From Caulobacter zeae (lineage in GTDB: Bacteria; Pseudomonadota; Alphaproteobacteria; Caulobacterales; Caulobacteraceae), in contig NZ_PJRS01000018.1 in assembly GCF_002858925.1 (NCBI RefSeq), positions 62,001-126,000 of the forward strand: DNA of 64,000 nt, given 5' to 3'. The position numbers and the translations under genes were made by a program. The notes beneath the pieces are model-generated. The model worked only from the letters and a program-made list of their open reading frames with translations. It had not been told where the DNA came from and did not search any database. Positions 30,742 through 50,049 of the stretch are shown here, piece after piece (within the stretch, counting starts at the first letter, position 1; the number at the start of each line of letters is the position of its first letter).

Positions 30742-31271
30742 GCCTCGCGATCAGGCCGACCACGATGGAGGACGCGGCGGCTGTCGCCGCCGTCCATCGC
30801 GCCACGGCGGCGATCCCGGGCGGTATCGCGCGGCGGCCGGACGAGATCACCGACGCCTACATCGCCCGGATCCTAGGCGAAGCGCTGGCCGACGGCGTGG
30901 GCCTGGTGGCGGTCGCCGAAGGCGGCGTCGTTATCGGCGAGATCCACGCCGTGCGCATACCGGTGCGGTTGTTCTCGCACGTACTTTCGGACCTGACGGT
31001 GGCCGTGCATCCCGACTGGCGAGGCAGGGGCGTCGGCTCGGCCCTGTTCCAGGCGCTGTTCGCCGCCGCGCGGGCCATGGATCCGGCAATCGTACGGGTG
31101 GAGCTCAACGCCGGCGCAGGCAATGCGGGCGCGCTGCGTCTCTACGAGCGGCTGGGGTTCCGGGTCGAGGGACGGCTGGAGAGGCGCGGGCGGTTCCCCG
31201 ACGGGACGTTCGAGGACGACATCGCGATGGGGCTGATCCTCAGTCCCTCCCCCTTAAGGGGGAGGGTCTAG
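30738..31271 (+). CDS. GNAT-family acetyltransferase
   Basis: 177 residues, N-acetyltransferase fold with the acetyl-CoA loop WRGRGVGSALF at about 94-104 and the closing motif NAGALRLYERLGFRVEGR near 130-147. Its start overlaps the astB stop by four bases, so it is the last gene of the ast operon. The acceptor is unknown; an amino-acid derivative or a protein amine are possible. The final residues (SPSPLRGRV) are read from a 22-bp palindrome and are unlikely to be original coding sequence. Confidence 0.8.
   Translation: MSLAIRPTTMEDAAAVAAVHRATAAIPGGIARRPDEITDAYIARILGEALADGVGLVAVAEGGVVIGEIHAVRIPVRLFSHVLSDLTVAVHPDWRGRGVGSALFQALFAAARAMDPAIVRVELNAGAGNAGALRLYERLGFRVEGRLERRGRFPDGTFEDDIAMGLILSPSPLRGRV
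31245..31266. terminator. 22-bp perfect palindrome at end of ast operon
   Basis: CCCTCCCCCTT followed at once by its complement AAGGGGGAGGG. It covers the 3' end of the acetyltransferase gene and lies just before the stop of the converging deacetylase-type gene, so it may end transcription from both sides. Probably a dispersed repeat that inserted into the coding end. Confidence 0.5.
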
Positions 31272-32167
31272 CCCGCGATCTCGCTGGCCATCATCGCCTT
31301 CACGCCCATCTCCCCCAGCCCCGCCAGCAACCGCCGCAGCGCCGAGATCCTGAACGGTTGTCCCGTCACATAAGGCGTCAAGGTGAAGCCCAGCACCCGG
31401 CCGCCGAACCGATTGGCGTCCTGCGTCAGGTAGTCGGCGGCCTCCAGCACCTGGATCGCCCATTCGTCTTCGCTCTGACGGCGGTCGATCATCAGCGCGC
31501 GGTCGTCGAGTTCGTTGGACAGGGGCAGGCCGATCACCTCGCCGGCGTTGGTCTTCATCGCCACGGGAACCTCGTCCTGCTCCCAGTCGAGGCAGATCTC
31601 GAAGCCGGCGGCGCGGATCAGGTCCAGCGTGGCGAACGACTGCTGCCGGGCCGGGCTCAGCCAGGCGCGAGGCCTCAGCCCCACCGCGTCGAACCGCGCC
31701 CGCACTTCGGCCACCCAGGCGGCTTCCGTCTCGCGATCAAGGCCGCCCCAGTGGATGTGGGTGGTCGACAGGCCATAGGCGGCGATCTCGTGGCCGTCTG
31801 CGAGGATCGCCTCGACCAGCGGCTTCAGCCGCGTGAGCTGGTCGGCGTTGATCGGGAAGGTCGCCTTCATCCCAGCCGCCTTCAAGGCTTCGAGGATGCG
31901 ATAGACGCCCACGCGGTTGCCATAGTCGCGCGTCGTGTAGTGGCGCAGGTCCGGATAGGGCGTGACCATGGCGCCGGGATGCTTGAACGGCTTGCCCGGC
32001 GGATTGAGCGGATGGTGCTCGATCGGCACGACGATCATCGCCGTCACCGCCGCGCCGCCAGGAAGGGCGATCGACGCGCGCTCTGTCGAGGGCCGCCAGG
32101 CGTAGCGGTCCTGGTCCATGCCGTAGGACCGATGTGGATAGATCAGGTGCTCGTCAGGTAGCGGCAT
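31268..32167 (-). CDS. PuuE-like polysaccharide-deacetylase superfamily hydrolase (copy A)
   Basis: 299 residues from ATG at 32167 (MPLPDEHLIYPHRSYGMDQD). It shares the family pattern of allantoinase/cyclic-imide hydrolase type NodB-fold proteins: RDYGNRVGVYRILEALKAAGMKATFPINADQL (about 90-123), GHEIAAYGLSTTHIHWGG, RPRAWLSPARQQSFATLDLI and NELDD. It is not a chitin deacetylase: there is no signal peptide, so it is cytoplasmic. Its start lies 14 bases inside the end of copy B, so the two are translationally coupled. The actual bond cleaved is unknown; ring-opening of a cyclic amide or imide is the likely chemistry. Confidence 0.75.
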   Translation of the reverse strand: MPLPDEHLIYPHRSYGMDQDRYAWRPSTERASIALPGGAAVTAMIVVPIEHHPLNPPGKPFKHPGAMVTPYPDLRHYTTRDYGNRVGVYRILEALKAAGMKATFPINADQLTRLKPLVEAILADGHEIAAYGLSTTHIHWGGLDRETEAAWVAEVRARFDAVGLRPRAWLSPARQQSFATLDLIRAAGFEICLDWEQDEVPVAMKTNAGEVIGLPLSNELDDRALMIDRRQSEDEWAIQVLEAADYLTQDANRFGGRVLGFTLTPYVTGQPFRISALRRLLAGLGEMGVKAMMASEIAG

Positions 32168-33098
32168 TGGCAAACCCCGTTCCCGGCGTGGCCAGGCCGC
32201 GCGCGGCGATGTCGGCGACGGTCTGGTCGAAGTAGTTTTCGCGATAGTGCTGCGCGATCTCGCGGGCCGTGGTGATCCACACCTCGTCGTGGCCGGCGAT
32301 GTGGCGCAGGGCGTCCTCAAACGGCCGGATGCGGTGCGGCTGGCTGACCAGGTAAGCGTGCAGCGGGATGCACATCACCGTGCCCGACTTCTCGCCCTCT
32401 TCCAGCAGCTGGTCGAAGTGGCGCTTGAGCACGTCGGCATAGCGCCAGGGGCTCATCGACAGCGCGCCGTAGGTGATGACGTCGTTGACCTCCAGCGAAT
32501 AGGGCATCGAGATCAGCTTGCCCGCTTTGGTCTTCACCGGCTGAGGCTGGTCGTCCTGGAAGAGGTCGCAGGTGTACCAGAAGTCGTTTTCGGCCAGCAG
32601 GTCGAAGGTCTTCTCGGTGTGGGTCAGGGCCGGCGCCAGGTAACCGCGGATGCGCTGGCCGGTGGCGGCCTCGACCGAGCGGATCGAATCCTCGATCACC
32701 GCCCGCTCCTGGGCCTCGTCCATGCCGTAGGAGAAGCGGGTGTTGTAGATGCCGTGGCTGAAGAACTCCCAGTTCCGCGCCACGCAGGCCTCGATGATCT
32801 CCGGGTGGTGGTCCAAGAGGCCCACCGACAGCGAGATCGAGCCGCGCATGCCGTACTTGTCGAGCAGCTCCATCAGTCGCCAGTGGCCGACCCGGTTGCC
32901 CCAGTCGCGCTGCGAGTAGCCCACGACGTCCGGCGAGGGCTTGGGCCAGCCGGGGCGCTGCGGGTTCTTGGGCGGATCGAACTCGTAGTATTCGATGTTC
33001 GGCGCGATCCAGAAGGCCAGCTTCTTGCCGCCCGGCCAGACGATCTTCGGGCGGTCCTTGTAGGGCCAGTGGTCGTAGAGGTTGGGATCGGCCTGCAT
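32154..33098 (-). CDS. PuuE-like polysaccharide-deacetylase superfamily hydrolase (copy B)
   Basis: 314 residues from ATG at 33098, with GGAG six bases upstream; the GTG at 33110 inside the previous stop is an alternative. Sequence includes DPNLYDHWPYKDRPKIVWPG, RDWGNRVGHWRLMELLDKYG, EFFSHGIYNTRFSYGMDEAQ, RIRGYLAPALTHTEKTFDLL and SLEVNDV. These correspond to the PuuE-type (metal-dependence uncertain) branch of the superfamily. No export signal. Together with copy A it could form a hetero-oligomer or handle successive ring openings. Confidence 0.75.
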   Translation of the reverse strand: MQADPNLYDHWPYKDRPKIVWPGGKKLAFWIAPNIEYYEFDPPKNPQRPGWPKPSPDVVGYSQRDWGNRVGHWRLMELLDKYGMRGSISLSVGLLDHHPEIIEACVARNWEFFSHGIYNTRFSYGMDEAQERAVIEDSIRSVEAATGQRIRGYLAPALTHTEKTFDLLAENDFWYTCDLFQDDQPQPVKTKAGKLISMPYSLEVNDVITYGALSMSPWRYADVLKRHFDQLLEEGEKSGTVMCIPLHAYLVSQPHRIRPFEDALRHIAGHDEVWITTAREIAQHYRENYFDQTVADIAARGLATPGTGFANAAT

Positions 33099-33110
33099 CT
33101 GACGCTCCAC

Positions 33111-33971
33111 TCAGCCGGCGGCGTAGGCCGCGCCGGTCGCCGCCATATCAGCAAGGCCGATGCGCTCGTTCACACCGCCCATGTCGATCATCCGCTCTGC
33201 GAACGGACGGGTGGCGCCATTGGCCTTCAGGCTGGCCAGGAAGGCCTCGGCGGTCGGCACCAGGGCGCGCACCAGGGCCCCGGGCGAGATCACCAGCTTG
33301 AAGCCGATGCGGCCCAGTTCGTTGACGTCCAGCAGCGGGGTCTTGCCGCCCTCGACCATGTTGGCCAGCAGCGGAACCCGCCCGGCGAAGGCGTGGGCGA
33401 TGGCGCTCATCTCGCCGATGGTGCGCGGGGCCTCGACGAACAGCACGTCGGCGCCGGCCTCGACATAGGCGTGGGCGCGGTCGAGGGCGGCCTCGAAGCC
33501 TTCCACCCCGATGGCGTCGGTGCGGGCGATGATCAAGGTCTGGTCGCTGGCGCGGGCGTCGAGCGCCGCGCGGATCTTGCCGGCCATCTCGGCGGTCGAA
33601 ACCAGGCTCTTGTCGGCCAGGTGACCGCACTTCTTGGGGAAGGTCTGGTCTTCCAGCTGGATCGCGCTGGCGCCCATCCGCTCGAAGATCCGCACGGTGC
33701 GCTGCACGTTGACGGCGTTGCCAAAGCCCGTGTCGCCGTCGACGATCAGCGGCAGGTTCACGCGCTCGGCCACGCGACCCACGACGTCGGCCACGTGGTC
33801 GAACGACACCAGGCCGATGTCGGGCCGGCCAAGCTGGGTGTAGGCGATCGAGGCGCCCGAGAGGTAGATCGCCTCGAAGCCGGCCTGCTCGATCAGCAAG
33901 GCCGAGAGGGCGTCATAGGCGCCGGGGGCCAGCAGCGGCGTGTCTTGGGCGAGGCGGTCGCGCAGGCTCAT
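33111..33971 (-). CDS. Isocitrate-lyase/PEP-mutase family carbon-carbon lyase
   Basis: 286 residues, cytoplasmic TIM-barrel lyase. Family marks: Asp78 in DGDTGFGN, QLEDQ with Glu107, and the lyase loop PKKCGHL at 112-118 (catalytic Cys115), plus RTDAIGVEGFE. The Cys in K-x-C-G-H marks true lyases such as methylisocitrate lyase and 2,3-dimethylmalate lyase rather than PEP mutase. Its start overlaps the LeuD-like gene by four bases. In this setting the best candidate reaction is cleavage of an alkylated malate to pyruvate (or a 2-oxo acid) plus a short acid. Confidence 0.8.
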   Translation of the reverse strand: MSLRDRLAQDTPLLAPGAYDALSALLIEQAGFEAIYLSGASIAYTQLGRPDIGLVSFDHVADVVGRVAERVNLPLIVDGDTGFGNAVNVQRTVRIFERMGASAIQLEDQTFPKKCGHLADKSLVSTAEMAGKIRAALDARASDQTLIIARTDAIGVEGFEAALDRAHAYVEAGADVLFVEAPRTIGEMSAIAHAFAGRVPLLANMVEGGKTPLLDVNELGRIGFKLVISPGALVRALVPTAEAFLASLKANGATRPFAERMIDMGGVNERIGLADMAATGAAYAAG

Positions 33972-34456
33972 GCGGCGGCTCCTTTCAGGCGTCGTTTCAG
34001 GTGGGTGATAAGGCCGCCATCGTCGATCATCGCCATCAGGTGCGGCGGTATCGGCGTGAGGGTATAGGTCTTGCCCGTGGTGATGTTCTCGAGACGTCCG
34101 GCGACCGGATCCAACTGGATCCGATCGCCGTCGCTCACCTCGCCGACCTGGGGAAACACGAAGGCCGGCAAGCCGAGGTTGATGGCGTTGCGGTAGAAGA
34201 TGCGAGCGAACGAGGTCGCCAGCACCGCGGAGACGCCAAGAAGTCGTAGGGAGACGGCCGCCTGCTCGCGCGAGGAGCCGAGGCCGAAATTGGCGCCGGC
34301 GAACACGACGTCGCCGGGCTGGACGGTAGACGCGAAGTCCGGCGCGATGGCCCGCAGGCAATGCTGCGCGAGCTCCGCCGGCGGCAGCTTCATCAGGTTG
34401 CCGGGAGCCAGCAGGTCGGTGTCGACAGCGTCGCCGAAGACGAAGGCGCGGGACAT
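33968..34456 (-). CDS. LeuD-type hydro-lyase small subunit
   Basis: 162 residues, swivel domain of the aconitase superfamily small subunit. The substrate-binding loop GLGSSREQA at 58-66 and the strand VLATSFARIFYRNAINLGLP near 79-98 are typical. It pairs with the LeuC-type large subunit directly upstream. The partner lyase downstream makes the alternatives homoaconitase or leucine biosynthesis less likely and fits a dimethylmaleate-hydratase-like (DmdB) role. Confidence 0.82.
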   Translation of the reverse strand: MSRAFVFGDAVDTDLLAPGNLMKLPPAELAQHCLRAIAPDFASTVQPGDVVFAGANFGLGSSREQAAVSLRLLGVSAVLATSFARIFYRNAINLGLPAFVFPQVGEVSDGDRIQLDPVAGRLENITTGKTYTLTPIPPHLMAMIDDGGLITHLKRRLKGAAA

Positions 34457-35739
34457 CAGGCGGCTCCCGTCAGGAAGGGGCGGGGATCGACGATGTGGCC
34501 GGCCGCGGCCGCGGCGGCCACGGCGTAGGGCGAGCCGAGATAGACGTTGGCCCCCGCATGGCCCATGCGGCCCTGGAAGTTGCGATTGGTCGACGAGATG
34601 CAGGTCTCGCCCTCGGCGAGGATCCCGGCGCCCATGCCGGCGCAGGCCCCGCAGCCCGACGGCATCAGCACCGCGCCGGCCGCCAGCAGGGTCTCCATCA
34701 CGCCTTCGCGCGCCGCCAGCTCCGCCGTGCGGGCCGAACCCGGCGCCACCAGCAGCCGCACGCCGGGCGCCACGCGGCGGCCTTTCAGCACGTCGGCCGC
34801 CATGCGCAGGTCCTCGATCTTGGCTCCGACGCAGGCGCCGATATAGGCTTGGTCGATACGGACCTCGCCAAACTCGGTCGCGTCGCGGGTGTTGGCCGGC
34901 GAGTGCGGGGCGGCGATCTGCGGGACCAGATCGGCGGCGTCGAAACGGTGCACGGTGGCGTAGATCGCATCCGCGTCTGAATGCAGGGCAAGGGCCCCCG
35001 CCTCATCTTCGACCGGTGCGCCGCGCGCTGCGAGATAGGCGAAGGTCACGGCGTCCGGCGCCACGACGCCGGTCTCGGCGCCCAGTTCGGCGGCCATGTT
35101 GGCCAGCACCATGCGCTCGGCCATCGGCATGGCCTCCACGAGCGGGCCGGCGAATTCCACCGCCTTGAAGGCGTTGTCCATGCCCAGTTCCCGGCACAGG
35201 AACAGCATGACGTCCTTGGCCGTGACACCCGGCTGGAAGGCGCCGGTCCACTCCACGCGGATCGTCTCGGGCACGGCCAGCCAGGTTTCGCCGGTGGCGG
35301 CGATGGCGGCCATGTCGGTGGCACCGTAGCCGGCTGCATAGGCGCCGAAGGCGCCGGCCGTGGGCGTGTGGCTGTCGCCGCCGGCGATGAAAGCGCCCGG
35401 GCGGATCAGGCCGTGCTCGGGCAGCACCAGGTGACAGATGCCGACCATGTCGAAGAAATTGGAAACGCCGTAATCGCGGGCGAAGTCACGGGTGGTCTTC
35501 AGGATCGCCGCCGATTCCGCATCGACGGCCGGTACGTAGTGGTCGGAGACGATGGCCACCTTGGCCGGGTCCCACAGGCCCACGCCCAGTTCTTCCAGCA
35601 GCGGACGCCAGCGGCGCGGGCCGCTGCTGTCGTGCGCGAAGGCCAGATCCACCTTGGCCGTCACGAGGTGGCCGGCGCGTAACGCCGGCAGGCCCGCAGC
35701 CTTGGCGATCACCTTCTCGACGAGAGTTCGTCCAACCAA
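34456..35739 (-). CDS. LeuC-type hydro-lyase large subunit with [4Fe-4S] site
   Basis: 427 residues. Cluster ligands Cys303 (YIGACVGAK), Cys363 and Cys366 (PSGCGACAG) are in place, with GGDSHTPTAGAFGAYAAG near 120-137. Length and motifs fit the homoaconitase/isopropylmalate isomerase/2,3-dimethylmaleate hydratase group. Start is TTG at 35739 with GGGAGG eight bases upstream, first gene of the leftward operon C and divergent from gcdH. Its stop shares one base with the start of the small-subunit gene. Confidence 0.82.
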   Translation of the reverse strand: MVGRTLVEKVIAKAAGLPALRAGHLVTAKVDLAFAHDSSGPRRWRPLLEELGVGLWDPAKVAIVSDHYVPAVDAESAAILKTTRDFARDYGVSNFFDMVGICHLVLPEHGLIRPGAFIAGGDSHTPTAGAFGAYAAGYGATDMAAIAATGETWLAVPETIRVEWTGAFQPGVTAKDVMLFLCRELGMDNAFKAVEFAGPLVEAMPMAERMVLANMAAELGAETGVVAPDAVTFAYLAARGAPVEDEAGALALHSDADAIYATVHRFDAADLVPQIAAPHSPANTRDATEFGEVRIDQAYIGACVGAKIEDLRMAADVLKGRRVAPGVRLLVAPGSARTAELAAREGVMETLLAAGAVLMPSGCGACAGMGAGILAEGETCISSTNRNFQGRMGHAGANVYLGSPYAVAAAAAAGHIVDPRPFLTGAA

Positions 35740-35862: not shown

Positions 35863-37053
35863 ATGCCCCTCGACGCCGCTCCTCAAACCGCCGGTTTTGA
35901 CTGGAAAGACCCGCTCGCCCTCGACGCCCGCCTGACCGAGGACGAGCGCCTGATCCGCGACGCCGCCCGTGCCTATGCTCAGGAACAACTTCTGCCGCGC
36001 GTCGTCTCGGCCTATGCCGACGGCCGGTTCGACCGCGAGATCATGAAGGAAATGGGCGAGCTTGGCCTGCTGGGCTCGACCCTGCCGGAAGAGTACGGCG
36101 GCGCGGCCGTCAGCCACGTGGCCTACGGCCTCATCGCCGCCGAGATCGAAGCCGTCGATAGCGGCTATCGCTCGGCCATGAGCGTCCAGTCGTCGCTGGT
36201 GATGTATCCGATCTACGCCTTCGGCTCGGAAGAACAGAAGCGTGAGTGGCTGCCGGGCATGGCCCGCGGCGAACTGATCGGCTGTTTTGGTCTGACAGAG
36301 GCCGACGGGGGGTCGGATCCGGGCTCGATGCGCACCGTGGCCCGCAAGGTCGACGGCGGCTACGTGCTCAACGGCGCCAAGATGTGGATCACCAACAGCC
36401 CGATCTCCGACGTGGCCCTGGTCTGGGCCAAGCTCGACGGCGAGATCCGCGGCTTCCTGGTCGAGCGCGGGACCGAGGGCTTCACCACCCCCAAGATCGA
36501 CGACAAGCTCAGCTTGCGCGCCTCGATCACCGGCGAGATCGTGCTGCAGGACGTGCGGGTGCCGGAAGACGCCATCCTGCCGAACGTGAAGGGCCTGCGC
36601 GGTCCGTTCTCTTGTCTCAACAAGGCTCGCTACGGCATCGCCTGGGGCGCGATGGGCGCGGCGCGCTTCTGCCTGGAGACCAGCGCGACCTATGTCGCCG
36701 ACCGCGTCGTCTTCGGCCGTCCGCTGGCCGCCCGCCAGCTGATCCAGAAGAAGCTGGCCGACATGCAGACCGAAATCGCGCTGGGCTTCGAAGGCGCCCT
36801 GGCGCTTGGCCGTCGCCTCGACGCCGGCGACTGGGTTCCGGAAGCCATCAGCCTGATGAAGCGCAACAACTGCGGCAAGGCCCTGGTCATCGCCCGCGAG
36901 GCCCGCGACATCCACGGCGGAGCCGGCATCTCCGGCGCCAGCCACGTCATGCGCCACGCCGCCAACCTCGAGACGGTCAACACCTACGAAGGCGCGGCCG
37001 ACGTCCACGCCCTGATCCTGGGCCGGGCGATCACCGGCCTGGCGGCCTTCTGA
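35863..37053 (+). CDS. gcdH: Glutaryl-CoA dehydrogenase
   Basis: 396 residues, FAD enzyme that oxidises and decarboxylates glutaryl-CoA to crotonyl-CoA. Glu96 and Arg103 ([17 protein letters not shown]) correspond to the residues that hold the distal carboxylate, and the catalytic base is Glu376 in [28 protein letters not shown] and KRNNCGKAL complete the signature. Start ATG at 35863 has GGAGG eleven bases upstream. It lies opposite the LeuC-type gene across a 120-base shared promoter region and is followed by an unknown gene. The carboxylate pocket means the substrate is a dicarboxylic acyl-CoA. Confidence 0.88.
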
Positions 37054-37064: not shown

Positions 37065-37787
37065 ATGAAGCACCACACCATCCGCGGCAAGATCCTCTAC
37101 ACCTCGCGCAAGCCTGGTCGCGAAGGGCAGGAGCGGGGCCGCGAGCACTTCGCCATGACCCGACACACCGACGGCAAGGTGACGATCCGCGCCCAGTGCG
37201 AGATCGACGAGCCCGATCCCACCGTCCTGCGCGACGCCATCTATTCGCTGGACGAGCACGGCCGGCCGATGGACCTGCACCTGCGCCTGACGGTCGGCGA
37301 CCGGTTCATGGGTTCGGGCTGGTTCCGGTTCACCGAGGACTTCATCGAGTGCGAAAGCTACGGCCCGTCGATCGGCCGCCTGTCACAGAAGATGCCGACC
37401 AATGGCTTCTTCGACGGTTTCGGCACCCACCCGATCATCGGCGACGCCTATATCTGCAAGGTGATGGACGTCGCCAAGGGGCCGCACAAGCGCAAGCTTC
37501 GCATCTTCCTGCCGTCCGTCGACCACCGGGGCGCCACCCCGCCGCAGATCGTCGAGAGCAGCATCACGCTGGAATATGTCGGCGAGGAAGAGACCACGAC
37601 CCCGGCCGGAACCTTCGCCTGCCGACGCTTCCGCTTCCTCGGCGAGGACGGCGGCATGGTCAGCAAGGACGGCGAGCACCCGACCTACGACATGTGGGTC
37701 ACAGCCGACGAACACTCGCTGTTCGTCAAGGGCGGTGTCGGGGGCTACATGCAGACCTGGTACGAGCTGGTGGAGTTGGAGCGGTAG
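37065..37787 (+). CDS. Hypothetical protein downstream of gcdH
   Basis: 240 residues, start ATG at 37065 after GAGGAGCGG, eleven bases past the gcdH stop, so probably one operon. The sequence alternates charged and beta-prone stretches (KVTIRAQCEIDEP, GRPMDLHLRLTVGDRFMGSG, SSITLEYVGEEETTTPAGTF) with no signal peptide or membrane helix. The PAGTFACRRFRF turn loosely recalls beta-sandwich domains such as DUF3108; I do not assign a function. Confidence 0.75.
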   Translation: MKHHTIRGKILYTSRKPGREGQERGREHFAMTRHTDGKVTIRAQCEIDEPDPTVLRDAIYSLDEHGRPMDLHLRLTVGDRFMGSGWFRFTEDFIECESYGPSIGRLSQKMPTNGFFDGFGTHPIIGDAYICKVMDVAKGPHKRKLRIFLPSVDHRGATPPQIVESSITLEYVGEEETTTPAGTFACRRFRFLGEDGGMVSKDGEHPTYDMWVTADEHSLFVKGGVGGYMQTWYELVELER

Positions 37788-39948: not shown

Positions 39949-39949
39949 C

Positions 39950-44195: not shown

Positions 44196-45358
44196 GAGGC
44201 TGCTCCCCCAATGGAATTCAAGACTTCGTCGGTATGCTCGCCGAGCTTGGGCGCCCGCGCTCCCGGCATCCGTTCACCATCGATCTTCACGGGGCAGGCC
44301 AGCATGGCCAAGCCTTCCGCTCGGTCAGGATGGTCGACGACGTCACGCATGCCGACCTCGGCCACGAACGGATTGTCGAGCGCGTCCATCATTTCCAGGA
44401 TCGGGGCGAAGGGCACCTTGCCGCCTAGAAGAGCAGTCCACTCGGCAGTGGTCCTCGTCCCGAACAGCACGTCCATCGCCTCGCTCAGCGCCGGGCGGTT
44501 GGCGTGGCGGCTGGGGATGTCGGCAAAGCGCGGATCGGCCTTCAGCTCGGCGGCGCCGGCGAGATCGCACAGCGCTTCCCAGAACTTGGGGGTCTGGCAC
44601 ATCACCAGGCCCCAGCCGTCGGCCGTCTTGACCGCCTGGGACGGCGCGATCGACGGGTGGGCGCCGCGCGGCAGGCGCTGGACCTTGTAGCCCTCGTTCA
44701 TCGCCCAGACGGCGGGATAGGAGAGCTGGTGCAGGGCCACGTCGAACAGTGAGACGTCGACGTCGCAGCCTTCGCCGGTCGTACGGGCCGACAGCAGGGC
44801 GCTGACCACGCCGAAGGCCAGCATGGTCCCGGTCATGAAGTCGACCATCGACACGCCCAGCCGCGCAGGCGGTGCGTCCGGCTCGCCGGTCAGGCTCATC
44901 AGCCCGGCCTCGGCCTGCATCAGGTAGTCGTAGCCCGGCCAGCCGGCCCGGCTGTTGCCGCGCCCGTAAGCGGAAAGGTGGCCGCAGACGATGGCAGGAT
45001 TGACGCCCTTCAGGTCGTCGTAGGTAAGACGAAGTTTGCCCGGCTGATCGCCGCGCAGGTTGTCGACCACCATGTCGGCCTGGGCCACCAGGTCCTCGAA
45101 GGCCGCGCGGCCCTCGGGGGTCTTGATATCGAGCGCGATGGACTTCTTCGACCGCGAGAAGGTCTGGAAGAACTGGCTGTCGGCCTGTCCCAGAAAGAAC
45201 GGACCGGTGGCGCGGCTGACGTCGCCGCCCATGGCCGGAGCCTCGATCTTGACGACCTCGGCCCCCAGCTCGGCCATCAACTGGGTGGCGTAGGGGCCGG
45301 CGCCGTATTGTTCGACGGCCAGCACCTTGATCCCCGCCAGGGGGCGACGCACGCGCAT
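44192..45358 (-). CDS. CaiB/BaiF family CoA-transferase (copy 2)
   Basis: 388 residues from ATG at 45358, which shares its A with the stop of the acyl-CoA dehydrogenase. Nucleophilic Asp144 (GYDYLMQAEAGLMSLTG), VLAVEQYGAGPYATQLMAELGAEV-type start, FSRSKKSIALDIKTPEGR. It belongs to the formyl-CoA/succinyl-CoA:dicarboxylate transferase group. Two tandem but dissimilar members may form a heterodimer or act on different dicarboxylates, as seen for some pairs in the family. Confidence 0.85.
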   Translation of the reverse strand: MRVRRPLAGIKVLAVEQYGAGPYATQLMAELGAEVVKIEAPAMGGDVSRATGPFFLGQADSQFFQTFSRSKKSIALDIKTPEGRAAFEDLVAQADMVVDNLRGDQPGKLRLTYDDLKGVNPAIVCGHLSAYGRGNSRAGWPGYDYLMQAEAGLMSLTGEPDAPPARLGVSMVDFMTGTMLAFGVVSALLSARTTGEGCDVDVSLFDVALHQLSYPAVWAMNEGYKVQRLPRGAHPSIAPSQAVKTADGWGLVMCQTPKFWEALCDLAGAAELKADPRFADIPSRHANRPALSEAMDVLFGTRTTAEWTALLGGKVPFAPILEMMDALDNPFVAEVGMRDVVDHPDRAEGLAMLACPVKIDGERMPGARAPKLGEHTDEVLNSIGGAAS

Positions 45359-46539
45359 CAGACCGGGTTCCGGGCCACGAGCTGGCGGGCGATGATGATC
45401 CGCTGCATCTCGTTGGTGCCTTCGCCGATGCACATCAGCGGGGCGTCGCGGAACAGCCGCTCGATCGGATATTCCTTCGAATAGCCGTAGGCGCCGTGGA
45501 TGCGCATGGCCTCCGTGGCCACGTACAGCGCCGTCTCCGACGCATAGTACTTGGCCATGCCGGCTTCCATGTCGACGCGCTCGCCGCGGTCGTAGGCCTT
45601 GGCGGCGTCTTCCACGAGGAGCTCCGAGGCGCGGGTCTTGGCGCCCATCTCGCCCAGCTTCAGCTGGATCGCCTGGTGCTGGGCGATCGGCTTGCCCATG
45701 GTCTTGCGGACCTGGGCGTACTTGACGCTTTCGGCCAGCGCGCGCTTGGCGATGCCGACCGAGCGGGCGGCGACGTTGATGCGGCCGATCTCCAGGCCGC
45801 CGGTGGCCATGACGAAGCCCTGGCCCTCTTCACCGCCGACGAGGCACAGCTCGGCGTCGCAGCGATAGTCCTCGAAGATGAACTCGCCGCTGTCGATGCC
45901 CTTGTAGCCCAGCTTCTCGAGCTTGCGGCCGTTGCTGACGCCGGGGATCGGGGCGCGCGTCTCGGGATCGATCTTGGGGGTGATGAGCATGCTCATTCCC
46001 TTGTGGCGCGGCTGGGCCTCGGGATCGGTCTTCACCAGCAGGGCCGAGACGTGGCCCTCGATGGCGTTGGTGATCCAGGTCTTGGCGCCGTTGACGACGT
46101 AGTCGCCGCCGTCTCGCCTTGCCACCGTGCGGATGCCTTGCAGGTCGGTGCCGGCGTCTGGTTCAGTCAGGCCCAGACACCCACGCAGCTCGCCGCTGGC
46201 GAAGCGGGGCAGCCAGAAGTCCTTCTGCTTCTGCGTGCCGAACTTCTGCACGACCATGGCCATCATCAGGTGCGAGTTGAAGACGCCCGTCAGGCTCATC
46301 CACTCGGCGCTGATCTTGGTGACGATCCGCGAATAGGTCAGAGCCGACAGGCCCAGACCGCCGTACTCCGGATCGATCAGGGCGCCGAACAGGCCCAGTT
46401 CCTTCATGTCCTCGACCAGGGCATGGGGATACTCGTCGTCGTGCTCGAGCTGCATCGCCACGGGGGCGACCTTCTTCTCCAGCCACTTGTCGATGGCGTC
46501 GAGGATGGCGCGTTCGTCGGCTTCCGAGATCTCGCTCAT
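45358..46539 (-). CDS. Acyl-CoA dehydrogenase
   Basis: 393 residues, FAD flavoprotein of the short/branched-chain class. LTEPDAGTDLQGIRT and TWITNAIEG give the flavin-binding region, GLEIGRINVAARSVGIAKRA the helix, and the catalytic base is Glu373 in GEGTNEMQR. It introduces an alpha-beta double bond in an acyl-CoA for the MaoC-type hydratase encoded two bases before it. Substrate is unknown; methylsuccinyl-CoA or another branched acyl-CoA would suit the neighbours. Confidence 0.85.
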   Translation of the reverse strand: MSEISEADERAILDAIDKWLEKKVAPVAMQLEHDDEYPHALVEDMKELGLFGALIDPEYGGLGLSALTYSRIVTKISAEWMSLTGVFNSHLMMAMVVQKFGTQKQKDFWLPRFASGELRGCLGLTEPDAGTDLQGIRTVARRDGGDYVVNGAKTWITNAIEGHVSALLVKTDPEAQPRHKGMSMLITPKIDPETRAPIPGVSNGRKLEKLGYKGIDSGEFIFEDYRCDAELCLVGGEEGQGFVMATGGLEIGRINVAARSVGIAKRALAESVKYAQVRKTMGKPIAQHQAIQLKLGEMGAKTRASELLVEDAAKAYDRGERVDMEAGMAKYYASETALYVATEAMRIHGAYGYSKEYPIERLFRDAPLMCIGEGTNEMQRIIIARQLVARNPV

Positions 46540-46541
46540 CG

Positions 46542-47063
46542 TCAGTAGTTCCCGACCTTGTCCTCGACGGCGTGGCCGCGCGCCGGGATCAGCATGTTGC
46601 GCTTGAAGGTGCAGACGACCGTGCCGTCCTGGTTCTTGCCGGTGGTCAGGATCGTGACGATGCCCTGGCCGGGGCGCGACTTGCTCTCGCGCTTGGCCAG
46701 CACTTCGCTCTCGCCATAGATCGTGTCGCCGGCGAACACCGGCGCGCTGAACTTCACCTCGTCCATGCCGAGGTTGGCGATCGCCTTCTGCGAGACGTCG
46801 GTCACGCTCATGCCGATCAGCAGGGCCAGGGTGTAGGGGCTGACCACCAGGTTCTTCTTGAACTCCGAGGCCTTGGCGAACTCGGCGTCGAAGTGCATGG
46901 GGTGGGTGTTCAGCGTCAGCAGCGTGAACAGGTGGTTGTCGTACTCGGTCACCGTCTTGCCGGGGCGGTGCTCGTAGACGTCGCCGACGATGAAGTCCTC
47001 GAAATAGCGGCCGAAGGTCTCGCGGTAGCGCTGAGGACCGACCTCTTTCCAGTTCTGCGACAT
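46542..47063 (-). CDS. MaoC-type enoyl-CoA hydratase, mesaconyl-CoA-hydratase-like
   Basis: 173 residues, single hot-dog domain. The catalytic region reads TVTEYDNHLFTLLTLNTHPM, followed by HFD, with Asp42 and His57 (R-hydratase dyad). The longer spacing and NTHPMHFD are typical of the branch that hydrates branched acyl-CoAs such as mesaconyl-CoA. It lies between the CitE-type lyase gene (11 bases upstream) and the acyl-CoA dehydrogenase gene (2 bases downstream), in the right order to hydrate the product of one for the other. Confidence 0.8.
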   Translation of the reverse strand: MSQNWKEVGPQRYRETFGRYFEDFIVGDVYEHRPGKTVTEYDNHLFTLLTLNTHPMHFDAEFAKASEFKKNLVVSPYTLALLIGMSVTDVSQKAIANLGMDEVKFSAPVFAGDTIYGESEVLAKRESKSRPGQGIVTILTTGKNQDGTVVCTFKRNMLIPARGHAVEDKVGNY

Positions 47064-47074
47064 GGGGGAGTCTC

Positions 47075-47881
47075 CTAGACTTGCGCGCGGTCGAGCACGC
47101 GCCGTGCGGTGCGGATGACCGGCAGTTCGATCAGCTTGCCGTCCAGCAGGGCGGCGGCCCCGCCGGCGGCGTCGAAGGCCTCGACTACGCGCTGCGCGCG
47201 CTCGATCTCAGCGGGCGAGGGGGTGTAGGCGGCGTTCACCGCGGCCACCTGGGCCGGGTGGATGCAGGACCGGCCGGTGAAGCCCAGGGCCTTGGCCCGC
47301 AGGGTCGAGGCGGTCAGGTCGTCCGGATCGGCGATGTTCAGGTGCGGCACGTCCAGTGAGGCCACGCCCGCCCGGCCGCAGGCGGCGATCAGCGTGCCGC
47401 GGCCCAGCAGCAGGGCGTCCCAGTCCATGGTCGAGCCCAGGTCGGCCGACAGGTCCGCGCCGCCGAACAGCGCGCCGGCCACGCCGGGGGCTGCGCAGAT
47501 CTCGAAGGCGCGGCGCAGACCCTCGGCCGACTCGACCACCGGCCACAGGGGCAGGCCCGGCAGCACTTCGCCGGCGGTCAGCAGGTCTTCGGGAGCAGCC
47601 ACCTTGGGGATCATCAGGAAGTCGGGCCGCGCCTGGCTTTCGGCCAGGGCGACCAGATCCTTCAGGCCCTCCAGCGTGCGCACGCCGTTGATCCGCAGGC
47701 CAACGGCGGCAGTGCGTGGCACGGCGAGGAAGGCGAGGGCGGAAGCGCGTGCTTCGCCTTTGCCGGCCGGCGGCACGGCGTCCTCCATGTCGATGCAGAC
47801 GGCGTCGGCCCCAGCGTCCAGCGCCTTGCCGAAGCGATCCGGGCGCGTCCCGGGCACGAAGAGCAGCGAGCGAAAGGTCAT
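47075..47881 (-). CDS. CitE-type (HpcH/HpaI family) CoA-ester lyase
   Basis: 268 residues from ATG at 47881 (MTFRSLLFVPGTRPDRFGKA); TTG at 47890, inside the previous stop, is an alternative. TIM-barrel lyase that splits malyl-, citramalyl- or 3-hydroxy-3-methylglutaryl-type CoA esters with a divalent metal. Visible: CIDMEDAVPP (metal/substrate Glu and Asp, 32-41), PKVAAPEDL, VESAEGL, GGADLSADLG and SCIHPAQV. Its place beside the MaoC gene fits cleavage of a hydroxyacyl-CoA to acetyl- or propionyl-CoA plus pyruvate or glyoxylate. Confidence 0.85.
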   Translation of the reverse strand: MTFRSLLFVPGTRPDRFGKALDAGADAVCIDMEDAVPPAGKGEARASALAFLAVPRTAAVGLRINGVRTLEGLKDLVALAESQARPDFLMIPKVAAPEDLLTAGEVLPGLPLWPVVESAEGLRRAFEICAAPGVAGALFGGADLSADLGSTMDWDALLLGRGTLIAACGRAGVASLDVPHLNIADPDDLTASTLRAKALGFTGRSCIHPAQVAAVNAAYTPSPAEIERAQRVVEAFDAAGGAAALLDGKLIELPVIRTARRVLDRAQV

Positions 47882-47886
47882 AGGCG

Positions 47887-48771
47887 TCAATCGCCTATCG
47901 GCACGGCCTCAGCGAACGCCTGGGCGATTTTTCTCCGACAGGCGATCCAAACGCCCTCCTGGGCGGTCACGTGGTCGAGGAACTTGCGGAAGGCGCCGAT
48001 GCGGCCCGGGCGGCCGATGATCCGCAGGTGCAGGCCAAGGCTCATCATCCGCGCCCCGACTTCCTGGCTCTCGGCGTGCAACTCGTCGAAGGTGGCCACG
48101 GCGTAGTCCAGCCAGTCCTTGGCGGTCAGCGACGGGGCCAGCCAGAACTTCATGTCGTTGGAGTCCATGGCGTAGGGCAGGATGACCATCGGCTTCGATT
48201 GCCCGTCCGCCGTCTCGACGCGGTCCCAGAAGGGGAAGTCGTCGGAATAATCGTCCATGTGATAGCTGAAGCCCGCCTCGGTGATCAGGCGGCGGGTGTT
48301 GTCGGTGTGCAGGTAGCGCGACAGCCAGCCCGATGGGCGCGTGCCGATCGTCCGCTCGATCGAGTCGGCGGCATTGGTGATGAACTCGCGCTCCTTGGCC
48401 TCGTCCATCCAGAACTGGTGGGTCCAGCGATAGCCGTGGGCGGCCACCTCGTCGCCGCGGGCGCGGATGGCGGCGGCCAGCTCGGGCGCGCGTTCCAGGG
48501 CGAGCGCGGCGGCTGTCCAGGTGGCCTCGATCCCGTGCTGGTCGAGGATCCGCAGGATGCGCGGCGCGCCGGCCTTGATCCCGTAGAGATAGTTGCTCTC
48601 GCTGCCGTGCATCCGCATCGGCTTTTTGGGAACCGCACCCAGCTCGTCGACCGGCTCGGGCCCTTTGTCACCGTCGCGGATGTTGTGCTCGGCGCCTTCC
48701 TCGACATTGACGACGATCGACAGTGCAAGGCGCGAACCGTCCGGCCAGCGGAAGTCGTCAGGTGCGGGCAT
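47887..48771 (-). CDS. PuuE-type allantoinase-like hydrolase (copy C)
   Basis: 294 residues, cytoplasmic NodB-fold enzyme, closest of the three to PuuE allantoinase: FRWPDGSRLALSIVVNVEEG at the start, SESNYLYGIKAGAPRILRIL, VAAHGYRWTHQFWMDEAKER, RPSGWLSRYLHTDNTRRLI, DSYDDDFPFW-type turn (DDYSDDFPFWD) and VILPYAMDSNDMKFW. PuuE hydrolyses the hydantoin ring of allantoin. No allantoicase, ureidoglycolate or urate genes are here, so the substrate is probably another cyclic amide or imide. First gene of operon A. Confidence 0.8.
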   Translation of the reverse strand: MPAPDDFRWPDGSRLALSIVVNVEEGAEHNIRDGDKGPEPVDELGAVPKKPMRMHGSESNYLYGIKAGAPRILRILDQHGIEATWTAAALALERAPELAAAIRARGDEVAAHGYRWTHQFWMDEAKEREFITNAADSIERTIGTRPSGWLSRYLHTDNTRRLITEAGFSYHMDDYSDDFPFWDRVETADGQSKPMVILPYAMDSNDMKFWLAPSLTAKDWLDYAVATFDELHAESQEVGARMMSLGLHLRIIGRPGRIGAFRKFLDHVTAQEGVWIACRRKIAQAFAEAVPIGD

Positions 48772-48892
48772 AGGGCTTTCTCCAGTAGGCGGTCACTTCG
48801 CTCGCGGCGCTCGCGCCTTTCGGTGCGGCGCTCCAGCGTGCGGCCTCCAAATCTTCACGGCGGCATGGGAGCCGCAACGGAGGGAGCGCCCG

Positions 48893-49207
48893 ATGGCCGT
48901 CACGCGGATTGTCGCCCTGTTCAACCTGAAGCCCGGCGTCTCGGTCGCCGACTACGAGGCCTGGGCCAAGGAACGCGACCTGCCGACCGTCAACGGCCTG
49001 AAGTCGATCGACAAGTTCGAGGTCTTCCGGTCGGCCGCCCTGCTCGGGACCGACGCTGCGCCGCCCTACCAGTACGTGGAGATCATCGACGTCGCCGACA
49101 TGGACGCCTTCGGGGCCGATGTCGCGACGGAAACGATGCAGGCGATCGCCGCCGAGTTCCAGGCCCTGGCCGACACCACCTTCATCGTTACCGAGAAGGT
49201 GGGTTGA
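48893..49207 (+). CDS. RedY-like (HapK-type) small protein
   Basis: 104 residues, start ATG at 48893 after GGAGGGAG. A ferredoxin-fold, Dabb/EthD-like dimeric protein by appearance: TRIVALFNLKPGVSVADYEA, KSIDKFEVFRSA, YQYVEIIDVADMDAFGAD. This arrangement is annotated as RedY/HapK-like, a family named from prodigiosin (pyrrole pigment) clusters, though it is widespread in catabolic loci. Divergent from operon A and coupled to the SDR gene that follows. Confidence 0.7.
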   Translation: MAVTRIVALFNLKPGVSVADYEAWAKERDLPTVNGLKSIDKFEVFRSAALLGTDAAPPYQYVEIIDVADMDAFGADVATETMQAIAAEFQALADTTFIVTEKVG

Positions 49208-49209
49208 GC

Positions 49210-50049
49210 ATGGCGGGACGGTTCGAAGGCAAGACGGCGGTCGTCACCGGGTCCGGTCGGCGCGGAGGCCTGGGGGAGGCCATCGCTCGACGCCTGGCGC
49301 AGGAGGGAGCGGCGGTGGTCGTCTCCGACATCGGTCGCTCCGTCGATCCTTCGACACCCGCCGGCATGATCGGCGGGACCGAGGAGATGGAAGCGATCGC
49401 CGCCGATCTGCGCCAGTACGGCGGGTCGGCCAGCATCCGGCCCTGCGACGTGCGTCGCTGGGACGAGGTCCGGGCGCTGGCCGACCATGCCAAGGAAACC
49501 CACGGCTCGCTCGACATCTGGGTCAACAACGCCGGTATCGGCTACATCATGAAGCCGCTGATGGAGGTCCGTCCGGAGGACTGGTCGGCGGTCATCGACG
49601 TCAACCTGACCGGCTGCTTCTACGGCCTAAAGGCCGCGGCCGAGGTGATGATCCCGCAAGGCACGGGCGGCCGCATCGTCAATATCGCCAGCCAGGCGGC
49701 CAAGTCGGGCTTCCCGCACGCCCAGGCCTACACCGCCTCCAAGCACGGCCTGGTGGGCCTGACCCGCTCGGCCGCCATCGAGCTGGGCGCGCACCAGATC
49801 ACCGTCAACAACGTCTGCCCCAACCACGTGACCACGGGCCTAGGCGCCTGGCAGAACGAGTACTTCGCCAAGGTCACCGGCGCGGCCTCGGTCGAGGCCT
49901 ATCTGGCCGCCATGGCCGCCCGCATCCCGCTGGGCCGCCCCGGCAAGCCCGAGGACACCGCCGACGCCGTGGCCTTTCTGTGCTCGGACGAGGCCAAGTA
50001 CATCACTGCCGAGAGCATGAATGTTTCGGGCGGCGAGGAGCCGCACTAG
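49210..50049 (+). CDS. Short-chain dehydrogenase/reductase
   Basis: 279 residues, classical SDR. NAD(P) loop TGSGRRGGLG at 13-22, Asp40 in VVSDIG after the second strand (NAD preference), NNAG at 106-109, catalytic Ser161 and YTASK (Tyr174, Lys178). Start ATG at 49210; a TTG two codons earlier overlaps the previous stop. It oxidises an alcohol or reduces a ketone for the same pathway as operon A, substrate unknown. Converges on the lipoprotein gene with a four-base overlap. Confidence 0.85.
   Translation: MAGRFEGKTAVVTGSGRRGGLGEAIARRLAQEGAAVVVSDIGRSVDPSTPAGMIGGTEEMEAIAADLRQYGGSASIRPCDVRRWDEVRALADHAKETHGSLDIWVNNAGIGYIMKPLMEVRPEDWSAVIDVNLTGCFYGLKAAAEVMIPQGTGGRIVNIASQAAKSGFPHAQAYTASKHGLVGLTRSAAIELGAHQITVNNVCPNHVTTGLGAWQNEYFAKVTGAASVEAYLAAMAARIPLGRPGKPEDTADAVAFLCSDEAKYITAESMNVSGGEEPH

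Follow-up and report, generated by a model that had tools for sequence, protein, structure and literature searches.

A gene cluster with predicted catabolic functions occupies positions 31268 to 50049 of the Caulobacter zeae DNA analysed here (the window, 64,000 nucleotides). The enzymes named in an earlier sequence-only reading are present where it placed them, and both their families and their coordinates are confirmed. Its statement that the cluster holds no transporter or regulator also agrees with the family matches across the window. Its inventory was incomplete, having missed the crotonase-family and DUF3108-like genes and overlooked a short open reading frame and a short-chain dehydrogenase (SDR) gene at the right-hand end. 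The genes are as follows.

31268-32137 (start approximate), minus strand: PuuE1, PuuE-fold paralogue, predicted degenerate partner subunit (Pfam PF01522)
32154-33098, minus strand: PuuE2, predicted imide ring-opener (TIGR03212, 123.1 bits, below cut-off)
33111-33971, minus strand: PrpB-like C-C lyase, PEP-mutase/ICL type (PF13714; TIGR02317, 293.9 bits against a cut-off of 354.4)
33968-34456, minus strand: LeuD-type small hydratase subunit (named from reading frame, translation and conserved place)
34456-35739, minus strand: LeuC-type large hydratase subunit, aconitase/isopropylmalate/homoaconitase subfamily (reaches TIGR01343, TIGR02086 and NF001614)
35863-37053, plus strand: glutaryl-CoA dehydrogenase-like acyl-CoA dehydrogenase (PDB chain matches)
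37065-37787, plus strand: DUF3108-like protein of a family recurrent in cluster loci (62% match)
37838-38620, minus strand: atypical member of the crotonase family, predicted CoA-ester substrate (PF00378)
38617-39948, minus strand: amidase-signature amidohydrolase (PF01425, 280 bits)
39950-41347, minus strand: PaaK-like acyl-CoA ligase (TIGR02155, 157.7 bits, below cut-off)
41365-42723, minus strand: MmgE/PrpD-family protein (PF03972 and PF19305)
43086-44195, minus strand: CaiB1, class III CoA-transferase (PF02515, 345 bits)
44192-45358, minus strand: CaiB2, class III CoA-transferase (PF02515, 373 bits; best curated models NF052585 and NF041294, each with a score under its cut-off)
45358-46539, minus strand: acyl-CoA dehydrogenase of the CoA branch (PF00441, PF02771, PF02770)
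46542-47063, minus strand: MaoC hydratase, RipB/Ich-like (NF038241, 235.9 bits against a cut-off of 340)
47075-47890, minus strand: CitE-type lyase, RipC/Ccl-like (NF038242, 226.8 bits against a cut-off of 375)
47887-48771, minus strand: PuuE3, third PuuE-like hydrolase (TIGR03212, 247.2 bits against a cut-off of 424.6)
48893-49207, plus strand: short open reading frame of 104 amino acids
49216-50049 (start approximate), plus strand: SDR (PF13561, 193 bits, in the frame 47971-50049)

None of the three PuuE-type proteins reaches the equivalog cut-off of TIGR03212, the allantoinase PuuE model; PuuE3 is the closest to it, and PuuE1 scores 53.7 bits. An AlphaFold model of PuuE2 (pLDDT 81.9) adopts the PuuE fold, with TM-scores of 0.77 and 0.80 against the PuuE allantoinase 3cl6, and PuuE2 is nearer to allantoinase than to HpPgdA. 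The Glu/His/His columns of PuuE2 are fully conserved (100%, n = 77 sequences), with E36, H115, and H247 invariant in 33 sequences. A PuuE1 homologue is found in 76 of 80 PuuE2 loci; among 75 PuuE1 sequences, the residue at the column of PuuE2 H247 is Thr in 84% and His in 8%. The three proteins had all been read as ring openers; PuuE1 and PuuE2 are better described as a fixed pair in which PuuE1 mostly lacks the His that PuuE2 always keeps. We predict that PuuE1 is a degenerate partner and PuuE2 the catalytic imide ring-opener.

The genes that accompany PuuE2 were surveyed in 299 genomes of the order, 66 with a strong PuuE2 homologue and 233 others. An isochorismatase-type amidase occurs in 66 of the 299, 65 of which belong to the PuuE2-strong set. 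In C. zeae this amidase lies outside the window, on another contig (C17). The homologue from locus L067, 85% identical to the C. zeae copy, matches PF00857 above its cut-off (98.5 bits). The best solved relative of the partner amidase is N-carbamoylsarcosine amidohydrolase, and it also matches 3ot4 and 3uao, which we take to be the maleamate amidohydrolase NicF. Since the amidase that nearly always accompanies PuuE2 is of the isochorismatase type and absent from the window, the amidase-signature enzyme to which the earlier reading gave the half-amide step may act elsewhere. In all 15 of the 80 loci that have the amidase-signature family, the crotonase is present too. Crotonase homologues, found in 18 of the 80 loci, keep E71, K139, Y144, and D148, and the positions that we take to be those of the classical catalytic Glu pair are not Glu. 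The PaaK-like ligase, whose PDB relatives are phenylacetate- and 2-hydroxyisobutyryl-CoA ligases and whose TIGR02155 score is below the cut-off of 646.3 bits, has homologues (63-77%) in 30 of 40 PuuE2-positive genomes (C. zeae included) and in 0 of 40 PuuE2-negative genomes.

Two unrelated types of C-C lyase occur in the PuuE2-strong genomes, 64 of the 66 having at least one: the PrpB type only in 31, the HMG-CoA-lyase type only in 32, both in one, and neither in two. Both types are found within four families and two genera. The PrpB type occurs in 32 of the 66 PuuE2-strong genomes compared with 2 of the 233 others. Among the 80 named loci, all 29 with the window-type LeuC also have the lyase, 29 have a LeuD-type homologue, and none has both hydratase types. 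The sequence-only reading had proposed co-occurrence in other genomes as a check on its pathway, and the counts for LeuC with the lyase and for PuuE2 with the lyase and the ligase bear it out. Other families recur in these loci: the family to which the DUF3108-like protein is matched is present in 14 of 80, and itself matches PF11306 weakly and below its cut-off. Going by names read from the sequences, a GntR-like gene is found in 26 of 80 related loci and an IclR-like gene in 8, two TonB-receptor-like families in 12 and 8, and a sodium:solute-symporter-like gene in 9. Inspection, rather than systematic search, recognised no tetrapyrrole-specific genes near the clusters.

The LeuC-type protein exceeds the cut-off of the subfamily model TIGR01343 (hacA_fam, homoaconitate hydratase family; 460.2 against 385.7 bits) and of the broader TIGR02086 (439 against 410.15) and NF001614 (515.7 against 385). 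It falls below the homoaconitase equivalog HacA_Meth (NF040615; 406.8 against 550) and the 3-isopropylmalate dehydratase equivalogs TIGR02083 (403.1 against 610.65) and TIGR00170 (248.7 against 560.25), missing the LeuC and LEU2 equivalog cut-offs. Two of the models it reaches, TIGR02086 and NF001614, also take in isopropylmalate dehydratases, so family membership does not point to homoaconitate in particular. A separate LeuC-like paralogue (39-47% identity) is encoded in the C. zeae genome. The PrpB-like lyase misses the cut-off of the methylisocitrate lyase PrpB model TIGR02317; its best solved relatives are methylisocitrate lyases (204 bits, compared with 152 for 3fa3, a PDB entry named 2,3-dimethylmalate lyase). 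Its KKCGH aligns with KRCGH of 6t4v and 1o5q, so that K(K/R)CGH, the catalytic motif of ICL/MICL lyases, is kept. A subfamily model covering homoaconitases and a lyase nearest to methylisocitrate lyase together fit methyl-homoaconitate and methyl-homoisocitrate. LeuC/LeuD is accordingly a predicted methyl-homoaconitate hydratase, and the lyase a predicted methyl-homoisocitrate lyase with pyruvate and glutarate as products.

A split of this kind would make the route, with an imide as its source, a one-carbon-longer counterpart to the last steps of the methylcitrate cycle. Both have the same lyase family, hydration before cleavage, and (predicted for the cluster) pyruvate plus a dicarboxylate; however, the methylcitrate cycle uses an AcnD/AcnB hydratase, whereas the cluster has a LeuC/LeuD-type enzyme, a predicted substrate one carbon longer, and a lyase below the PrpB cut-off. 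The nicotinate fermentation of Eubacterium barkeri includes dimethylmaleate hydratase and dimethylmalate lyase, and resembles the cluster in placing a LeuC/LeuD-like hydratase acting on a dialkylmaleate before a lyase of the PEP-mutase/ICL fold. The cluster differs in that its lyase is nearer to methylisocitrate lyase and is linked to an imidase and a glutaryl-CoA dehydrogenase. In the C. zeae lineage, the earlier analogy to the conversion of dimethylmaleate to propionate would give way to pyruvate and glutarate.

The product of 35863-37053, previously called a dehydrogenase, is an acyl-CoA dehydrogenase and, more precisely, glutaryl-CoA dehydrogenase-like: it closely matches the solved proteins of that name 3gnc, 3eom, 3d6b, 1sir, and 1siq (E 1.9e-160 to 5.3e-153). 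Its top PDB match, 4w9u, is named only acyl-CoA dehydrogenase, and the next best homologue in the genome is at 33%. This nature of the gene beside LeuC, and the way it tracks the lyase within the genus, are new beyond the earlier reading. In the genus, it is present in 11 of 12 lyase-positive and 5 of 63 lyase-negative genomes, and a glutarate CoA-transferase-like gene in 11 of 12 and 7 of 63; as the lyase is 94-100% identical to that of the window in 9 of the 12, these associations come from few independent lineages. Across the order, with dehydrogenase presence scored at E 1e-100, lyase and dehydrogenase are not associated (19 of 34 against 128 of 265, p 0.26), nor is the dehydrogenase associated with the HMG-CoA-lyase type (13 of 33). 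Glutarate is therefore not a universal product, the dehydrogenase being missing from 15 of the 34 lyase-positive genomes; the lyase-positive G347 has neither dehydrogenase nor CoA-transferase. In the 19 genomes with both genes, their starts are less than 6 kb apart in 15, and the dehydrogenase still adjoins the lyase in genomes that have PuuE2 at another place (e.g., G173, G227, and G208). In C. zeae the CoA-transferase is on C17, about 1.6 kb from the isochorismatase-type amidase; its best family is succinate-glutarate CoA-transferase NF052585 (530.6 bits, below the cut-off of 750; second best 293.8).

Membership of the CaiB-to-PuuE3 operon in the same system has the weakest support. The operon is whole in only two fetched loci, both Caulobacter (L036 and L037). 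G173 (L152) has CaiB1 and CaiB2 homologues (60%) at a distance of 3.4 kb or more from the block of glutaryl-CoA dehydrogenase, LeuC, LeuD, and lyase. Like RipABC of itaconate degradation, the operon groups CaiB, MaoC, and CitE, and among curated models its MaoC and CitE proteins score best against RipB and RipC; unlike RipABC, it falls short of both cut-offs and has two further genes, one for an acyl-CoA dehydrogenase and one for a PuuE-like hydrolase.

The grouping of this gene set in a Caulobacter-type genome is no mere accident of position, and related bacteria keep many of the genes together. The best reading of their order of action is imide, half-amide, alkylmaleate hydration, and lyase, a predicted sequence of steps well supported by the co-occurrence of amidase, lyase, and CoA ligase with PuuE2. 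The order of steps in the earlier reading thus survives, with changes to the amidase, the product, and the number of ring openers. From the families, conservation, co-occurrence, and linkage observed, we infer substrates, reaction directions, and complex formation as follows. PuuE2, in complex with degenerate PuuE1, would open the imide ring; the isochorismatase-type amidase, possibly helped by the cluster amidase, would free the half-amide nitrogen; LeuC/LeuD would hydrate the alkylmaleate; and the lyase would cleave the alkylmalate, the half with the methyl group becoming pyruvate and the rest a carboxylic acid. With hematinic acid as substrate, this acid would be glutarate, to be activated by the C17 CoA-transferase and oxidised by the glutaryl-CoA dehydrogenase adjoining LeuC. 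The PuuE3-CitE-MaoC-dehydrogenase-CaiB operon may perform the same task by way of CoA esters on a saturated analogue of the succinimide type.

Pyruvate and glutarate as products point to hematinic acid among the tetrapyrrole maleimides. Hematinic acid, which derives from heme and chlorophyll, is the maleimide with a methyl and a propionate substituent, and these two side by side on a maleimide are the pattern of tetrapyrroles. We tentatively favour, at somewhat less than even confidence, a system that degrades 2,3-disubstituted maleimides from oxidised tetrapyrroles (heme, bilins, and chlorophyll). Counting against this reading are the missing order-wide association between lyase and dehydrogenase and the fact that inspection of the cluster surroundings turned up no recognisable tetrapyrrole-specific gene. 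In one study, hematinic acid is present in leaves, where other maleimides were undetected, and its occurrence in lake sediment is cited (PMC7318184).

The same chemistry might serve another alkylmaleimide or alkylsuccinimide of plant, microbial, or man-made origin, a possible if rather unlikely alternative. Any 2,3-substituted maleimide fits the gene content, and the lyase-positive genomes that lack glutaryl-CoA dehydrogenase accord with this; in lineages that have the dehydrogenase, however, pyruvate plus glutarate calls for a methyl/propionate maleimide.

A cyclic ureide of the hydantoin or allantoin type is an improbable substrate of the PuuE enzymes; the isochorismatase-type enzyme would then remove a carbamoyl group, and the hydratase and lyase would act on a different acid. 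Some room is left for this by the nearest solved relative of the amidase and by PuuE2 being closer to allantoinase than to HpPgdA, in addition to the allantoinase scores of PuuE3 and PuuE2. Cluster PuuE proteins have fold and family in common with the allantoinase of purine catabolism. They differ from it in that all three score under its equivalog cut-off, PuuE2 goes with a degenerate partner, and the accompanying genes are others. Against a ureide, besides these scores, the amidase also matches 3ot4/3uao, and a C-C lyase in nearly every PuuE2-strong genome would not be expected with a ring whose product is an amino acid.

More doubtful still is a six-membered imide of the glutarimide type, for which two hydrolyses would give glutarate or hydroxyglutarate, with the CoA-transferase and glutaryl-CoA dehydrogenase downstream. 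The fungal nicotinate cyclic imidase HxnM, related by its authors to HpPgdA and PuuE, acts on 3-hydroxypiperidine-2,6-dione before an amide hydrolase (PMC9304392), and within the genus, genomes with the lyase tend to have the glutarate genes. As predicted for the cluster, HxnM/HxnN and the Pseudomonas putida cyclic imide hydrolase convert an imide to a half-amide, after which nitrogen is freed. In contrast, HxnM/HxnN has a glutarimide substrate, the available text describes no hydratase, lyase, or glutarate step, and the closest structural homologue of HxnM is HpPgdA (PMC9304392), whereas PuuE2 is closer to PuuE. A glutarimide would also leave LeuCD and the lyase unexplained, and the dehydrogenase adjoins this lyase even with PuuE2 elsewhere. 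Three unrelated operons side by side by chance, suggested by the few whole copies of the third operon, is the least probable explanation, as the stretches analysed at most other Caulobacter loci end before that operon (its range is hardly probed), the first two blocks co-occur across the order even when unlinked, and G173 has homologues of CaiB1/CaiB2 close to its lyase block.

The maleimide system could, though this is unlikely, form part of a whole route for heme, bilin, and chlorophyll oxidation end products, including bilirubin-oxidation-end-product amides. Pyrrolone-ylidene acetamides would then enter through the amidase, CoA ligase, and atypical crotonase: the amide would be hydrolysed, the acid converted to a CoA ester, hydrated, and split by retro-aldol reaction to acetyl-CoA and the maleimide. 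The maleimide would pass through the PuuE2/PuuE1 imidase, in which one half of a heteromer would be a pseudo-enzyme, to pyruvate and butyrate- or glutarate-type acids, and the PrpB type and the CoA-transferase plus HMG-CoA-lyase type would be interchangeable ends of one pathway. If the tetrapyrrole maleimide reading is true, these bacteria would turn ring compounds from pigment breakdown, the remains of heme and chlorophyll, into ordinary cell fuel.

The window corresponds to positions 62001-126000 of contig C36 in a host genome of 5.39 Mb, and the nearest named records carrying its PuuE2 gene come from Caulobacter, e.g., C. endophyticus (98%) and C. radicis (97%). Between 31.3 and 50.0 kb, three operon-like blocks on the minus strand are accompanied by plus-strand genes:

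Genes of the cluster, by window position
Block 1, 31268 to about 32137, minus strand: PuuE1, PuuE-like
Block 1, 32154-33098, minus strand: PuuE2, PuuE-like
Block 1, 33111-33971, minus strand: PrpB-like lyase
Block 1, 33968-34456, minus strand: LeuD
Block 1, 34456-35739, minus strand: LeuC
Beside block 1, 35863-37053, divergent: glutaryl-CoA dehydrogenase-like gene, with a DUF3108-like gene
Block 2, 37838-38620, minus strand: crotonase
Block 2, 38617-39948, minus strand: amidase (amidase-signature), then a PaaK-like CoA ligase and MmgE/PrpD
Block 3, minus strand: two CaiB CoA-transferases, acyl-CoA dehydrogenase, MaoC, CitE, and PuuE3 (47887-48771)
Cluster end: short ORF and SDR gene

The sequence-only reading saw a catabolic cluster here, and this observation is confirmed. 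The genes that it listed are correct, although it left the crotonase, the DUF3108-like gene, and the identity of the first dehydrogenase unnamed. A scan for promoters and terminators found sites no more numerous than in shuffles. Directly upstream lie the AST pathway genes AstA, AstD, and AstB (25674-31271; arginine succinyltransferase; assigned by curated families), and next comes a GNAT-like acetyltransferase gene, the end of which shares four bases with the end of PuuE1. Two tRNA-Lys (ctt) genes stand about 3.4 kb to the right of the cluster (53499-53837, minus strand), with about 190 bases between them.

The PuuE2 sequence matches that of PuuE allantoinase (1z7a, 1.6e-28; 3cl6, 3.2e-27), and its AlphaFold model (mean pLDDT 81.9) fits the 3cl6 fold with a TM-score of 0.77/0.80. 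The allantoinase cut-off is missed widely. Allantoin or hydantoin was downgraded as a substrate, as was glutarimide. Relatives of PuuE2 are encoded in 334 stretches of the genome collection, of which 80 were examined; named Caulobacter, Brevundimonas, and Hyphomonas strains carry the gene, and some stretches come from MAGs recorded as Cytophagales, Chitinophagales, or Marinimicrobia. PuuE1 is present in 76 of the 80 named loci, and because this pairing is fixed, a PuuE1-PuuE2 complex is predicted. Conservation was assessed in 77 of the 80 PuuE2 and in 75 PuuE1 sequences, after filtering by identity, coverage, and stop codons. At three columns that PuuE3 shares, all 77 PuuE2 sequences have Glu, His, and His, presumably metal-binding or catalytic residues. 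In PuuE1, the first of these columns is Glu in 97% of sequences, the second is His in 56% and Tyr in 37%, and the third is Thr in 84% and His in 8%; our reading of these sequences is that PuuE1 would be a mostly dead partner subunit of PuuE2. The PuuE2 alignment comprises 33 sequences from an initial 37, with loci L116, L125, L133, and L135 left out and the end of L127 trimmed.

An isochorismatase-type amidohydrolase is found in 68 of the 80 loci, mostly adjoining the PuuE pair. Its nearest solved structure is N-carbamoylsarcosine amidohydrolase (3e-30), and it also matches 3ot4/3uao (6e-24), which we take to be the maleamate amidohydrolase NicF. This partner amidase is absent from the window and is encoded elsewhere in the same genome (contig C17:54568-55242). 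Of the order's 299 genomes, 66 carry a strong PuuE2 match and 66 the partner amidase, with 65 genomes common to both; the strong set retains G207, in which PuuE2 is split, and omits the weak matches in G087, G202, and G251, which count among the 233 others. In G207 (C5:2032-2977), PuuE2 is divided between two overlapping reading frames, and the amidase and an HMGL-type (HMG-CoA-lyase type) lyase are present. Several Hyphomonadaceae-type and similar loci (among them L093, L099, L100, L104, and L107) have further families near the PuuE pair: a nitrilase-family amidase, present in 17 of the 80 loci; an FAD-linked oxidase/aldehyde dehydrogenase family, in 21; and an uncharacterised membrane-protein-like family, in 16, for whose representative Pfam gives no match.

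The PrpB-like lyase, scored at 58% identity or above, is found in 34 of the 299 genomes. Of these, 32 are PuuE2-strong, and the remainder are G251, with its weak PuuE2 match, and G286, a 63% complete genome. Matches below 58% (G161, G102, G155, G001, G057) were not scored as positive. The HMGL-type protein occurs in 33 genomes, all PuuE2-strong. Thus, the 66 PuuE2-strong genomes divide into 31 with the PrpB-like lyase only, 32 with the HMGL-type only, one with both, and two with neither. Both types occur within each of families f1, f3, f4, and f5 and within each of genera g1 and g2 (f2 has the HMGL-type only), so the swap does not set clade against clade. These genome-wide counts cover the lyases, and the hydratases were counted within the 80 named loci. 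There, window-type LeuC is accompanied by the PrpB-like lyase in 29/29 loci, while another LeuC type occurs with the HMGL-type lyase in 16/19 and with CaiB in 13/19; no locus holds both hydratase types, and 30 hold neither within the locus DNA covered. Two unrelated lyases in a single slot are an argument that the opened ring goes on to hydration and C-C cleavage. The window pair is not the ordinary LeuCD of leucine biosynthesis, as it misses the curated LeuC equivalog cut-offs and the genome has a separate LeuC-like paralogue. LeuC scores 460 bits on a homoaconitate-hydratase family model, above its cut-off of 385.7; it also passes broader models that include isopropylmalate dehydratases, and it misses the homoaconitase equivalog. 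The PrpB-like lyase is nearest to methylisocitrate lyase (204 bits, versus 152 for the 2,3-dimethylmalate lyase 3fa3).

Lyases of this family convert a 2-alkylmalate to a 2-oxoacid and a carboxylate. Pyruvate and glutarate as products would require 2-hydroxy-2-methyl-3-(2-carboxyethyl)succinate. Hydration of 2-methyl-3-(2-carboxyethyl)maleate gives this compound, and that maleate is the triacid corresponding to hematinic acid (a methyl/propionate maleimide). Hematinic acid is the maleimide derived from propionate-bearing tetrapyrrole rings. Its triacid is methyl-homoaconitate and the hydrate methyl-homoisocitrate, which fits a hydratase within the homoaconitate family model and a lyase nearest to methylisocitrate lyase. 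With ethyl or vinyl in place of propionate, the lyase would yield pyruvate and butyrate or crotonate, and such rings may explain lineages that have no glutaryl-CoA dehydrogenase.

The product of 35863-37053 resembles glutaryl-CoA dehydrogenase (E at most 5.3e-153 to five PDB sequences so named; its top match, 4w9u, is named just acyl-CoA dehydrogenase), and its closest other homologue in the genome is 33% identical. Across 75 genomes of the genus, this dehydrogenase is present in 11 of 12 with the lyase versus 5 of 63 without it (p 1e-8), and a CoA-transferase in 11 of 12 versus 7 of 63. The CoA-transferase (C17:56813-58048, about 1.6 kb from the partner amidase) best matches succinate-glutarate CoA-transferase, at 530.6 bits below the cut-off of 750. 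In G322 and G330, a stretch of about 6 kb holds CoA-transferase, dehydrogenase, and lyase. Nine of the 12 genus members with the lyase have it at 94-100% identity, and so independent lineages are few. Order-wide, the dehydrogenase is present in 19 of the 34 lyase-positive genomes and missing from 15; in 15 of the 19, the two gene starts are at most 6 kb apart. Of the HMGL-type genomes, only 13 of 33 have the dehydrogenase. No association of lyase and dehydrogenase presence was found across the 299 genomes (p 0.26). The support for the link consists of adjacency and the genus-level pattern. The earlier proposal that dimethylmaleate is turned into propionate and pyruvate survives as a possible second substrate class, and is not the main reading because glutaryl-CoA dehydrogenase and CoA-transferase are linked to the lyase.

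Homologues of the PaaK-like ligase (63-77% identity outside this genome) occur in 30 of 40 PuuE2-strong and 0 of 40 PuuE2-negative genomes, hand-picked from 66 and from 230 without a PuuE2 match, respectively (Fisher p about 1e-13). These homologues are often separated from PuuE2 by tens of kilobases or lie on another contig. The amidase-signature gene is found in 15 of 80 loci, each time with the crotonase. Block 2 belongs with the PuuE2 system. The co-occurrence search proposed in the sequence-only reading gives a strong result for blocks 1 and 2. Membership of block 3 is less well supported than that of block 2: it is whole in just two related loci, both Caulobacter, and most other Caulobacter loci stop before it. 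In G173, homologues of both CaiB genes (60%) are neighbours of the lyase block. Block 3 resembles a methylsuccinate/itaconate-type CoA route, with RipB and RipC as best matches below cut-off, and may treat a saturated analogue.

More speculatively, block 2 might feed maleimides into block 1. Bilirubin oxidation end products (BOX) are pyrrolone-ylidene acetamides. From the BOX amide, the amidase would produce the acid and the ligase its CoA ester, which the crotonase would then hydrate and cleave to acetyl-CoA and a maleimide. The last step is modelled on feruloyl-CoA hydratase-lyase, which hydrates and splits its own substrate likewise. The crotonase is unusual in having no Glu at the two positions presumed, from the motif, to be catalytic, while its E71, K139, Y144, and D148 are kept by all 18 homologues.

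A second related locus of the same genome (C17:54562-79999, L145; also L144, 14563-18049) includes the partner amidase and the glutarate CoA-transferase-like gene. It also encodes another PrpB-like lyase (53-55%), the genome's fourth PuuE-like protein (31%), an MFS transporter, a member of the arylmalonate decarboxylase family, proteins of the FAD monooxygenase type, and an FAD_binding_4 oxidase, and has DUF1330, GST, SDR, and methyltransferase-like genes. This locus may represent a branch upstream of the window pathway or parallel to it. A locus in G171 (L148, 11107-17451) resembles the C17 locus but has its own hydratase, combining PuuE-like, FAD monooxygenase-like, LeuC, LeuD, and PrpB-like lyase (39%) genes with one that we read as arylmalonate-decarboxylase-like.

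The general scheme of imide to half-amide, hydration, and cleavage is likely, with its activities predicted from sequence, and a fungal imidase/amidase pair offers a precedent for the first two steps (PMC9304392). A tetrapyrrole origin of the substrate is our best current guess. As a whole, a catabolic system for tetrapyrrole maleimides is the best explanation, held tentatively and just short of probable; confidence is lowered slightly because the hydratase passes broader subfamily models too. One study puts yearly chlorophyll synthesis and breakdown on a 10^12 kg scale, counts hematinic acid and pyrrole-derived amides among chlorophyll oxidation products, detected hematinic acid but no other maleimides in leaves, and refers to previous reports of maleimides and hematinic acid from senescent leaves and lake sediments (PMC7318184). 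Escherichia coli ChuS releases hematinic acid from heme, according to a title cited in PMC8669743. Among the matches listed in the literature searched (titles and abstract openings), neither bacterial genes degrading hematinic acid or maleimides nor such a whole pathway are described. Conversion of hematinic acid to pyruvate and glutarate is the sharpest testable claim. Even with another substrate, the pathway would be a well-defined unknown, being conserved, spread over several operons, and equipped with two C-C lyases that almost exclude each other; if the tetrapyrrole reading is true, these would be named candidate genes for the last steps of tetrapyrrole mineralisation.
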